37,653 bases of DNA. Origin: Egibacter sp. (GTDB lineage: Bacteria > Actinomycetota > Nitriliruptoria > Euzebyales > Egibacteraceae). Within the stretch, counting starts at the first letter, position 1, and every line of letters starts with the position of its first letter. The stretch is taken from NCBI GenBank assembly GCA_003553795.1, contig PWFH01000231.1, positions 1 through 37,653 of the forward strand. Direction: 5' to 3'. Below the pieces are notes generated by a model that saw only the letters and a list, made by a program, of their open reading frames with translations, was not told where the DNA came from and made no database searches. Below are positions 7,367-12,013 of this stretch, piece after piece. A program made the translations under genes and the position numbers.

Positions 7367-7966
7367 TCAGCCGGTCGGCGCCGGGGTGGTCGGCATGAAC
7401 GGTGGCCGCGCCGCCTCGAACGCCTGGATGTCGTCGTCGTGCTCGAGGGTGAGGCCGATGGGGTCGAGGCCGTGGACGAGCATGTGCTTGGTGTGACCGT
7501 CGATGTCGAAGCGCGCGAGCACGCGTCCGGCGACGACGAGCTGCTCGGGCAGGTCGATGCGCACCGGCGCGGCGGGGTCCTCGAGGGCCATCGCCACGAG
7601 CTCCTCGCACGCGGAGGCCTCGAGCGGCACGGTGAGCAGGCCGATCTTCGCGCAGTTCGTCTTGAAGATGTCGGCGAAGCTCGGCGCGATGATCGCGTCG
7701 AAGCCGTACTGCTGCAGACCCCACGGGGCATGCTCACGACTCGAGCCGCAGCCGAAGTTCGGCCCGGTCACGAGGACGTTGCCGCCGGCGTAGCGCGCGT
7801 CGTTGAGGACGAAGTCGCGGTCCTCACGCCAGTCGTCGAAGAGGAACTCGCCGAACCCGGTGCGCTCGATGCGCTTGAGGTGCTGCTTGGGCATGATCTG
7901 GTCGGTGTCGATGTCGGCCTGCCAGAGCGGCACCATCGTGCCGCTCACGACCGTGACGGGGTCCAT
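7367..7966 (-). CDS. leuD: 3-isopropylmalate dehydratase small subunit
   Basis: A 199-residue swivel subunit of isopropylmalate isomerase, which with LeuC interconverts 2- and 3-isopropylmalate in leucine synthesis. Recognisable segments are DIDTDQIMPKQHLKRI near the N-terminus, GPNFGCGSSREHAPWGLQ in the middle and SFADIFKTNCAKIGLL. The length is normal for bacterial LeuD. Its ATG overlaps the leuC stop by one base (TGATG), so the subunits are translationally coupled. No leuB follows; the next gene downstream is an ABC ATPase 143 bp away. Confidence 0.97.
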   Translation of the reverse strand: MDPVTVVSGTMVPLWQADIDTDQIMPKQHLKRIERTGFGEFLFDDWREDRDFVLNDARYAGGNVLVTGPNFGCGSSREHAPWGLQQYGFDAIIAPSFADIFKTNCAKIGLLTVPLEASACEELVAMALEDPAAPVRIDLPEQLVVAGRVLARFDIDGHTKHMLVHGLDPIGLTLEHDDDIQAFEAARPPFMPTTPAPTG

Positions 7967-9534: not shown

Positions 9535-11127
9535 TTACGGGGTCTCGGTGGTGGCCCGCACCCGCTGGAGGCGCACGGACCGGTTCAGCGCGGAGAGGAA
9601 CGCTCGCGCGCTGGCCTCCACCACGTCGGTCGACACGCCGCGCCCGGTGTAGCGCTGCCCGTCGACGTCGACCTGGACGGTCACGTCACCGAGGGCGTCG
9701 ATGCCCTTGGTGACCGCCGCGACGTTGAAGTTCACCAACGTCGCATCGCTGCCGATCGCGCGGCGGATCGCGCCGCACGCCGCATCGACCATCCCGTTGC
9801 CGTCGCCGCTCACCGACTCCTCCAGCACGACGTCGTCGGCGGTGCGACGCACGCGGACCGTGGCGGTGGGTTGCCCCACGGTGCCGCCGGAGACCTCGAG
9901 CCCCTCGAGCTCGTAGGCCTCCTCGCTCGTTGCCGAGATCTCGTCGGCGACGATCGCCTCGAGGTCGGCGTCGGTGAGCTCGACCTTCTTGTCGGCGAGG
10001 CCCTTGAAGCGCTCGAAGGCGCGCTGGGTCTCCTCTGCGGTCAGCTCGTAGCCCATGTCGGTGAGCTGTTGGCTGAACGCATGGCGCCCGGAGTGCTTGC
10101 CGAGGACGATCTGGCTGCCGACCATGCCGACGGCCTCGGCGTCCATGATCTCGTAGGTCAGGCGGTCCTGGAGCACCCCGTGCTGGTGGATGCCCGACTC
10201 GTGGGCGAAGGCGTTCTTGCCCACGACCGCCTTGTTGAACTGCACGGGATAGCCGGTGAGGGTGCTCACCAGCCGGCTCGTGCGCCCGATCTCGCGGGTG
10301 TTGACCCGCGTGGGTCGGGCCAGGAGGTCCGCTCGGGTCGCGAGCGCCATGACGACCTCCTCCATCGCGCAGTTGCCCGCGCGCTCCCCGATGCCGTTGA
10401 CGGCGACCTCGACCTGCGTCGCGCCGTTGCGCACCGCCTCGATGGAGTTCGCCACGGCGAGCCCGAGGTCGTTGTGGCAGTGCACGCTCACCGCGACCTC
10501 GGGACCGACGCGGCGCACGATGTCGCCGATCATCGCCCCGAAGTCGTGGGGGATGGCGTAGCCGACGGTGTCGGGGATGTTCACCGTCGTCGCGCCGGCC
10601 TCGACCGCGGCGTCGACGATCCGCTTGAGGAACTCGACGTCGGTGCGGGTGGCGTCCTGCGGGCTGAACTCGACGTCCGGGGTGAACTCGAGCGCCTGCT
10701 TGATGCCCTCGACCGCCTGGTTGACGATCGCGTCCTCGCTCGCGCCGTGGTGCAGCACGTGGCGGTGGATCTCGCTCGTGGAGAGGAAGACGTGGATGCG
10801 CGAGTGCGTCGCCGGCGCGAGCGACTCCGCCGCACGGGTGATGTCGGCGGGGTGGCAGCGCGCGAGCGCGGCGATCGTCGGCGGGGTCTCCGCCTCGTTC
10901 CACACCTGCGTGCCCACGGCCTCGGCGATGCCGTGCACCGCCGCGGTGTCCCCCGCGGAGGTGATGGGGAACCCGGCCTCGATGACGTCGACGCCGAGCC
11001 GGGCGAGCTGCTCGGCGATCTCGAGCTTCTCCTTGGCATCGAGGGAGATGCCGGGGGCCTGCTCGCCGTCGCGCAGCGTCGTGTCGAAGATGCGGACGGG
11101 CGCAGCGGCCGGGTCGGTGGCGGTCAT
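9535..11127 (-). CDS. leuA: 2-isopropylmalate synthase (type I)
   Basis: A 530-residue enzyme condensing 2-ketoisovalerate with acetyl-CoA, the committed step of leucine synthesis. The catalytic TIM barrel carries DTTLRDGEQAPG (15-26), the metal-binding HCHNDLGLA and the NGIGERAGN segment, followed by GKHSGRHAF. The C-terminal 130 residues form the LeuA regulatory domain where leucine inhibits. Sequence and length fit the type I (proteobacterial-like) enzyme, whereas many actinobacteria use the longer type II form. The ATG is preceded by a very strong GAGGAGGAG Shine-Dalgarno with a 6-nt gap. That same sequence is complementary to leucine codons in the upstream leader frame. A citramalate synthase reading is less likely given leuCD nearby. 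Confidence 0.93.
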   Translation of the reverse strand: MTATDPAAAPVRIFDTTLRDGEQAPGISLDAKEKLEIAEQLARLGVDVIEAGFPITSAGDTAAVHGIAEAVGTQVWNEAETPPTIAALARCHPADITRAAESLAPATHSRIHVFLSTSEIHRHVLHHGASEDAIVNQAVEGIKQALEFTPDVEFSPQDATRTDVEFLKRIVDAAVEAGATTVNIPDTVGYAIPHDFGAMIGDIVRRVGPEVAVSVHCHNDLGLAVANSIEAVRNGATQVEVAVNGIGERAGNCAMEEVVMALATRADLLARPTRVNTREIGRTSRLVSTLTGYPVQFNKAVVGKNAFAHESGIHQHGVLQDRLTYEIMDAEAVGMVGSQIVLGKHSGRHAFSQQLTDMGYELTAEETQRAFERFKGLADKKVELTDADLEAIVADEISATSEEAYELEGLEVSGGTVGQPTATVRVRRTADDVVLEESVSGDGNGMVDAACGAIRRAIGSDATLVNFNVAAVTKGIDALGDVTVQVDVDGQRYTGRGVSTDVVEASARAFLSALNRSVRLQRVRATTETP

Positions 11128-11133
11128 GACGAG

Positions 11134-11238
11134 CTCCTCCTCGATGCGTGCGGGGTCGCACCCTTGTGGCGATGTCCTCCGCGGGGGGCTCGGTGCGTCA
11201 GCGGCTGCCGCCCCGCGGCATCAAAGGATGAGGAGGAG
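11134..11238 (-). promoter_or_regulatory. leuA translational attenuator
   Basis: The leuA Shine-Dalgarno in the mRNA, GAGGAGGAG (11142 down to 11134), is a perfect 9-nt complement of CTCCTCCTC (11238 down to 11230), the consecutive leucine codons of the upstream leader frame. The paired segments enclose two hairpins: CCGCGGGG/CCCCGCGG (11211-11218 with 11179-11186) and a 5-bp GTGCG/CGCAC stem (11157-11161 with 11148-11152). A ribosome stalled on the leucine codons would hide one arm and free the leuA start. Rapid translation would let the arm close over it. A conserved pseudoknot called the LEU element is known upstream of leuA in many actinobacteria; this may be a relative. The mechanism is inference. 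Confidence 0.7.
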
Positions 11239-11328
11239 AAGGCCCACGATGGGGCCGAGCAGGCGCACGTCGATGCCCGCGGCGCGGGTCGCGCGCCGGG
11301 CGCTCTCGGAGGTCGTGTGCGGGCTCAC
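11221..11328 (-). CDS. Leucine leader peptide upstream of leuA
   Basis: A 35-codon frame ending 93 bp before leuA. Its last 15 residues read VRLLGPIVGLLLLIL, with seven leucines, two isoleucines and two valines: the make-up of a branched-chain attenuator peptide. Two of the seven leucine codons are CTT, a poor choice in so GC-rich a genome. The GTG at 11328 lies 8 nt after a good -10 hexamer, so the mRNA would begin at or next to the start codon and need no ribosome binding site. A shorter reading from the GTG at 11268 gives only the 15-residue tail. It probably acts in cis, sensing charged tRNA-Leu; the peptide itself need not function. Confidence 0.72.
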   Translation of the reverse strand: MSPHTTSESARRATRAAGIDVRLLGPIVGLLLLIL

Positions 11329-11336
11329 GAGCCCAA

Positions 11337-11365
11337 GTTGTACGCGCCGCGGCGCGCGCCGTCAA
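11337..11365 (-). promoter_or_regulatory. leuA leader promoter
   Basis: Minus-strand TTGACG (11360-11365) and TACAAC (11337-11342) are separated by exactly 17 bp, close to the housekeeping sigma consensus. Transcription should start 7-9 nt downstream, essentially at the GTG of the leader frame (11328). The region upstream is shared with the divergent ACT-domain gene. Confidence 0.7.
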
Positions 11366-11456
11366 CCTCGCGCCACGATCGGGCCGGCGCCGAGGCCGCT
11401 CGCCGCGGCGTCTCCGGGGCCCCAGGGCGCGAAACACCGCCGTCATCGGGGCGGCG

Positions 11457-11462
11457 TAGGCT
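11457..11462 (+). promoter_or_regulatory. Candidate -10 of the ACT-domain gene
   Basis: TAGGCT ends 8 nt before the ATG at 11471, the spacing expected for a leaderless transcript. The gene has no clear Shine-Dalgarno, which agrees. A convincing -35 was not found. Confidence 0.4.
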
Positions 11463-11470
11463 CTGCGGCG

Positions 11471-12013
11471 ATGGAGATCATGCTGCGGTGCGAGCTCGAC
11501 GACACCCCCGGCTCCCTCGCCCTGCTCGCAGGCACGATCAGCGAGGCCGGGGGGGACATCCAGTCGGTCGACGTCGTCGAGACCGAGGAGGGGCGCGTGC
11601 TCGACGACCTCCTCGTCGTCATCGACGGCGAGCGCGGCGCCGCCCTGCTGCACGCCCTCGAGGCGCTGCCCGAGGTCACGCTCGTCCACGCCGGGCCGTC
11701 CCGCGGGCACCCCGGCGATGCGGTCACCCGGCTGGCGGTCGGCCTCGAGGCGCTGCTCGACGGCCAGGCTCCCACCGAGCGGGCGCTGCCGACGCTCATC
11801 GGCGGCATGCTCCGCGCCTCCGCCGCCGAGCTCGTCGCGCGGGGCGAGGCACCACGACCCTCGAGCAAGGTCCTCGTCCTCGACGTCGACGCCCGCGTGC
11901 TCGTGGTGCGGCGCGACTACCGCTTCACCGACACCGAGCGGGAGCGTGCCGCCGCCCTGCTGCGCCTCGCGTTGCTCGCCGAGGGCGCCCGCGATCACTC
12001 CGCGACGGGGTAG
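11471..12013 (+). CDS. ACT-domain protein, unknown C-terminal half
   Basis: A 180-residue protein. Residues 1-75 look like an ACT domain (MLRCELDDTPGSLALLAGTI, then GGDIQSVDVVE), a small-ligand sensor usually binding amino acids. The remaining 100 residues hold a basic and hydrophobic segment (SSKVLVLDVDARVLVVRRDY) that I cannot assign. No DNA-binding motif, catalytic domain or membrane span is visible. It is transcribed divergently from the leuA leader, with the two starts 142 bp apart, and its last 19 bp overlap the 3' end of the convergent phoU gene. A role in sensing branched-chain amino acids is suggested only by position. Confidence 0.75.
   Translation: MEIMLRCELDDTPGSLALLAGTISEAGGDIQSVDVVETEEGRVLDDLLVVIDGERGAALLHALEALPEVTLVHAGPSRGHPGDAVTRLAVGLEALLDGQAPTERALPTLIGGMLRASAAELVARGEAPRPSSKVLVLDVDARVLVVRRDYRFTDTERERAAALLRLALLAEGARDHSATG

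Follow-up and report, generated by a model that had tools for sequence, protein, structure and literature searches.

The leuA leader in the window (the whole 37,653-nucleotide stretch of DNA analyzed here) is probably a translational attenuator of the LEU-element kind that responds to leucine through ribosomes stalled on leucine codons. Leucine codons near the end of a short leader open reading frame (ORF) can pair with the leuA Shine-Dalgarno (SD), and a hairpin and a pseudoknot lie between these two arms. We find that this layout is conserved in the window's class, Nitriliruptoria, and that the two arms change together among relatives.

The leuA locus and its leader

leuA is followed on the same strand by leuC and leuD, named here from protein family and gene order, and the three genes presumably form a leuACD operon:

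7367..7966, minus strand: leuD, Aconitase C-terminal domain PF00694
7966..9396, minus strand: leuC, Aconitase family PF00330
9535..11127, minus strand: leuA, 2-isopropylmalate synthase, 530 aa, NF002086 / TIGR00973 (leuA_bact) type
11221..11328, minus strand: leader ORF, 35 codons, GTG start, TGA stop, C-terminus GLLLLIL
11337..11365, minus strand: promoter-like sequence, TTGACG (11365-11360), 17-nt spacer, TACAAC (11342-11337)

An ORF with an ACT domain match (11483-12013, plus strand) is divergent from leuA.

The TACAAC hexamer is separated by 8 nt from the leader GTG, and a transcript start downstream of position 11238 is therefore disfavored. A start near 11330 is predicted, which would make the leader ORF leaderless. 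Another 20 leaders of the class (21 in all) have a similar promoter-like pair 4 to 10 nt 5′ of their start codon, and this closeness is the reason that we predict leaderless translation. The TTGACG/TACAAC pair is absent from the list of a stricter sigma-70 scan because its second hexamer has a final C.

The predicted product of the leader ORF is VSPHTTSESARRATRAAGIDVRLLGPIVGLLLLIL. In relatives, leaders have 27 to 37 codons and a Leu-rich tail, and the stop codon keeps its position just 5′ of hairpin H1 even where TAG replaces TGA (L011, L019, and L021). Of 37 leaders, 35 have CTT as their final sense codon (window 11226-11224) and two have CTC. In the leuA genes, CTT accounts for 7 of 1,211 Leu codons. 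The same genome contains a second match to the leader region, weak and 34 bp long (L002; G000:C144:3249-3282, E 7.7e-4).

No terminator-like site was found between the leader and leuA. An intrinsic terminator at that place, the criterion for a classical transcription attenuator, is thus not present in the window. An Rfam search, a kind of check that the earlier note had proposed, covered positions 10500-12000 and returned nothing at the curated threshold and only two sub-threshold matches.

Leader codons pair with the leuA Shine-Dalgarno

The two arms of the base stem are as follows:

11230..11238, minus strand: three CUC Leu codons (codons -5 to -3), the putative sensing codons and anti-SD arm, identified from sequence and the own-versus-swapped test
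11134..11142, minus strand: leuA Shine-Dalgarno GAGGAGGAG, the putative repressible arm, 6 nt before the ATG at 11127

The codon arm CUCCUCCUC (11238-11230, minus strand; also written CTCCTCCTC) pairs with GAGGAGGAG (11142-11134) over 9 of 9 bases. In the minimum-energy fold of the 135-nt element, this 9-bp stem forms unaided (-58.2 kcal/mol); with the CUC codons masked, the same fold reaches -49.0 kcal/mol, leaving the intact element 9.2 kcal/mol better. The earlier note had described three leader Leu codons as a perfect complement of the SD 6 nt before the ATG, and this is confirmed. The match is real, but it is not improbable in one sequence: when the leader was recoded synonymously 20,000 times with the codon usage of the window's leuA, where CTC makes up 25 of 34 Leu codons, 9,938 recodings retained a perfect 9-nt complement. 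The synonymous-codon control on the window alone was not significant (p 0.39), and the 236-nt leader showed no excess of fold stability over its shuffles (z -0.99). The 9-nt match is cheap in the window alone, and evidence beyond chance comes from relatives.

The layout is conserved and its arms co-vary

The analysis covered 66 genomes of the class, including the window's own, among which the region upstream of a TIGR00973-type leuA was readable in 40. The whole layout is found upstream of leuA in 39 of these 40; the exception is L029. Among the matches listed in a genome-wide pattern scan, element-bearing contigs belong to Nitriliruptoraceae, Nitriliruptorales, Egibacteraceae, Euzebyaceae, and Salsipaludibacter albus, and most of the hits listed from outside Nitriliruptoria have no leuA nearby. 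Among 54 leuA_bact loci belonging to other families of the phylum, not one has the class's core (the form-2 core).

For the co-variation test, 37 leaders were each set against every SD region, their own included; leader and SD regions were set once and kept fixed, and both of the scores used are given. The longest run averaged 7.59 for own arms versus 6.82 for swapped arms (3 of 20,000 permutations), and duplex energy averaged -21.2 versus -18.8 kcal/mol (0 of 20,000). After removal of close relatives, the 27 de-replicated leaders gave 188 of 20,000 for run and 30 of 20,000 for energy. Combined over species, the synonymous-codon control gave p ~5e-8 (run) and 0.005 (energy), values that treat related species as independent. 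Codon shuffles within leaders gave no signal. We conclude that the codon:SD match across relatives is more than chance.

Individual arm pairs show how the match is maintained. Compared with CTCCTCCTC/GAGGAGGAG in the window, compensatory pairs are CTCCTCCTG/CAGGAGGAG in L020, GTTCTGCTC/GAGCAGAAC in L025, CCTCATCCTGG/CCAGGATGAGG in L022, and CTCCTCATTC/GAATGAGGAG in L016; the computed pairing in L012 is CTTCTTCT/AGGAGAAG. In the nearest relative (L004), codons -5 to -3 (CTCCTTCTC) match GAGAAGGAG, and the best-scoring duplex uses codons further upstream. Best duplexes overlap the SD zone (-14 to -5) in 31 of the 37 leaders, and several relatives (L008, L027, and L174) have 5 to 6 pairs only. 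Across species, the codons that pair with the SD vary while the Leu tail remains constant. The joint changes in L020 and L025 support the earlier proposal that the sensing codons may also be the repressing arm, and the co-variation it had asked for in relatives is found. Co-variation of codons with the SD, together with the lack of a terminator-like site, likewise agrees with its preference for translational control.

Some related loci depart from this picture. Two Nitriliruptoraceae contigs (L063 and L070) have the element but lack a leuA after it; what follows is a short ORF and then a LeuC-like ORF, and a leuA may have dropped out there. At L158, the ORF that the element precedes corresponds to the C-terminal part of LeuA alone (77% over 150 aa to L172), and this leuA looks truncated. 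In another family of the phylum (L218), a Leu-rich leader without the class core motif has GCTTCTCCTC pairing 10/10 with GAGGAGAAGC before leuA. Leu leaders followed by apparent intrinsic terminators precede leuA_bact genes elsewhere in the phylum (L195, L197, L215, L229, L238, and L240).

Hairpin, pseudoknot, and simulated ribosomes

Between the two arms lie the following elements, all on the minus strand:

11211..11218, minus strand: H1 hairpin 5′ arm CCGCGGGG, starting 2 nt past the leader stop
11192..11197, minus strand: pseudoknot strand CGCACC, in the H1 loop, pairing with GGTGCG
11179..11186, minus strand: H1 hairpin 3′ arm CCCCGCGG, pairing with CCGCGGGG
11157..11162, minus strand: pseudoknot strand GGTGCG, overlapping the 5′ arm of the alternative hairpin
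11161-11148, minus strand: alternative hairpin GTGCG-ACCC-CGCAC, from sequence

The outer four pairs of H1 are invariant in 30 rows, and the inner pairs show compensatory changes, as in L012 (CCGCAGGG/CCCTGCGG). The pseudoknot is longer in relatives (11 pairs in L020 and 9 in L012). In the own-versus-swapped comparison within the window's order, it gave 55 of 20,000 for run and a marginal 1,018 of 20,000 for energy; in the other families of the class, run gave no signal and energy little, and in families f4-f5 the pseudoknot is unsupported statistically. No counterpart of the alternative hairpin is apparent in relatives. The earlier note had placed two hairpins between the arms: the region is better described as a hairpin with the pseudoknot CGCACC/GGTGCG than as just two hairpins.

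We simulated ribosomes in 36 leaders by masking ~31 nt around the Leu codons, with pseudoknots outside the method. The SD hexamer had a mean unpaired probability of 0.18 in free RNA and 0.40 to 0.47 with a ribosome on the Leu codons, while a ribosome further upstream left it at 0.18. Thus, codon masking is predicted to open the SD in most relatives. A ribosome at the stop codon opens the SD as well (0.39), and repression would therefore need the ribosome to depart. In the window itself, with 60 nt of upstream leader included, masking raises this probability only from 0.10 to 0.17, as a leader segment further upstream then pairs with the SD instead.

Proposed mechanism and alternatives

We infer that the leader is translated, that ribosomes stall in it, and that leuA responds to leucine in the following direction. 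A ribosome would begin at the 5′ end of the leaderless mRNA and read the 35-codon leader. With ample Leu-tRNA, it would complete the leader at the UGA just 5′ of H1 and depart; H1 and the pseudoknot would then bring the CUC codons to the leuA SD, the base stem would close, and leuA would be blocked. With scarce Leu-tRNA, the ribosome would stall on the Leu codons and so cover the codon arm together with the first part of H1, leaving the SD open. Points against this explanation are codon mutations in Streptomyces coelicolor, the small effect of masking in the window, the relatives with 5 to 6 pairs, and the control on the window alone.

The S. coelicolor mutations, made in leader codons of leuA, had effects inconsistent with classical attenuation, as reported in Seliverstov et al. 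(2005, PMC1262725). Because these effects were unclear, the authors thought attenuation unlikely and favored a protein-binding model, the protein being orthologs of ML1624; the mechanism of the LEU element has been unsettled since. Applied to the window, their model would make the RNA fold the binding site of a regulatory protein and the leader ORF secondary. Conservation of the hairpin and pseudoknot would suit such a site, as would the mutant results. However, conservation extends to the leader ORF with its Leu-rich end and to the place of its stop, even where TGA has become TAG, and the SD-paired codons differ among species while the Leu tail stays. We regard protein binding as unlikely. 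Should the same codons serve both for sensing and as the repressing arm, a codon mutation would alter both functions together, which could explain the unclear mutant results. The co-variation of the arms makes this double role directly testable by paired arm mutations.

Equally unlikely, in our judgment, is that leader translation acts on transcription, through Rho-dependent termination in the stretch from leader to leuA, with the codon:SD pairing incidental. The window has no intrinsic terminator, Rho has been suggested for terminator-less leaders of actinobacterial cys operons (PMC1262725), and other actinobacterial groups have Leu leaders of leuA with apparent intrinsic terminators; yet co-variation between SD and codons is unexpected if the pairing is incidental. 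Nascent-peptide arrest, in which the hydrophobic leader tail would stall the ribosome on leucine or another signal, is more doubtful still: the Gly-Leu-rich hydrophobic tails of these 27- to 37-codon leaders are compatible with it, but tail residues shift in position and identity, and no motif past Leu richness is demonstrated. A last reading takes the leader as non-regulatory and the complementarity as a side effect of a strong SD combined with CTC-rich Leu codons. It would agree with the frequent survival of the match under recoding and with the unexceptional fold stability, but this already disfavored reading is highly improbable given the whole layout in nearly every class genome and the cross-species co-variation.

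Relation to the LEU element and other leaders

The architecture of the leader places it beside the LEU element, which is defined by a Leu run in a leader peptide, by a pseudoknot, and by the pairing of Leu codons with the leuA SD in a base stem (PMC1262725). The window shares the position upstream of leuA, the Leu-run upstream ORF, the codon:SD base stem, and the internal pseudoknot. Because the codon:SD base stem defines the published element, we assign the window element to this kind; the choice in the earlier note between a LEU element and a simpler relative thus falls to the former, in a divergent form. Membership is likely, on architecture rather than proven sequence homology. The kind has been known since 2005, and the window form is a distinct sub-form, a new lineage variant; the genome list of the LEU element paper includes none from the window's class. 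A full-text literature search, covering few subscription journals, turned up no mechanistic work on the LEU element later than that paper.

The classic form precedes TIGR00970-type leuA in several actinobacterial families and at 12 loci of the window's class. Its layout is a Leu run, H1 with the leader stop in its loop, and a pseudoknot, for example AGACCGGC/GCCGGTCT. In alignment A1 of this form, H1 is 98% paired and the pseudoknot 83%; own arms exceed swapped arms at ~375 of 20,000 on both scores (n 19, some start codons probably mis-chosen). The Leu run ends in CTT in 14 of 18 classic-form leaders.

Several features separate the two forms. The leader has ~35 codons in the window form versus ~13 to 15 in the classic LEU element, and it stops before H1 rather than inside the H1 loop. 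The window's leuA is of TIGR00973 type, whereas the classic-form loci examined precede the TIGR00970 type. An alternative hairpin on the shared base stem belongs to the published element; a hairpin of this kind exists in the window, and none was seen in relatives.

By eye, the forms share a core in the same frame, CTT-NNN-(C/T)GCCGCGG, which reads CTT-CGT-CGC-CGC-GGC in the classic form versus CTT-TGA-CGC-CGC-GGG in the window form. From this core frame, we read the two as putatively homologous with a shifted stop, a reading that a covariance model did not establish. That model, built from 18 TIGR00970-type leaders, scored the window element at 20.5 bits, only third in the window and below the 29.9 bits of a chance match antisense to ligA; it is unspecific in GC-rich DNA and was dropped as a homology test. 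The genes downstream differ: TIGR00973 leuA here, TIGR00970 leuA behind the classic form in sister genomes, and a LeuC-like gene on two leuA-less contigs. Two genomes (G197 and G198) carry both forms. It is about an even call whether the window form represents a stop-shifted, class-specific LEU sub-family, one RNA module with differing downstream genes whose Leu codons are doubly constrained, by sensing and by pairing.

Other leaders resemble the window's in part. LeuL1 of Streptomyces lividans (MRFGLLLLSCRGEGL) is likewise a leaderless Leu leader before leuA, with no typical Rho-independent terminator (PMC8079986); unlike the window leader, it has 15 residues, and its C-terminus agrees with the classic form, whose leader runs into the hairpin. 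Leu-leader transcription attenuators (L045-L049 and L051) have an apparent intrinsic terminator by eye, whereas the window has none. Mycobacterial polycysteine attenuators (Canestrari et al. 2020, as summarized in a review, PMC9031893) are leaderless short ORFs with a run of sensing codons, in which ribosome speed controls downstream translation; they sense cysteine, unlike the window leader, and the likeness is one of logic. Compared with the classic LEU element, the long form that stops before the hairpin sets the sensing frame more cleanly apart from the hairpin.
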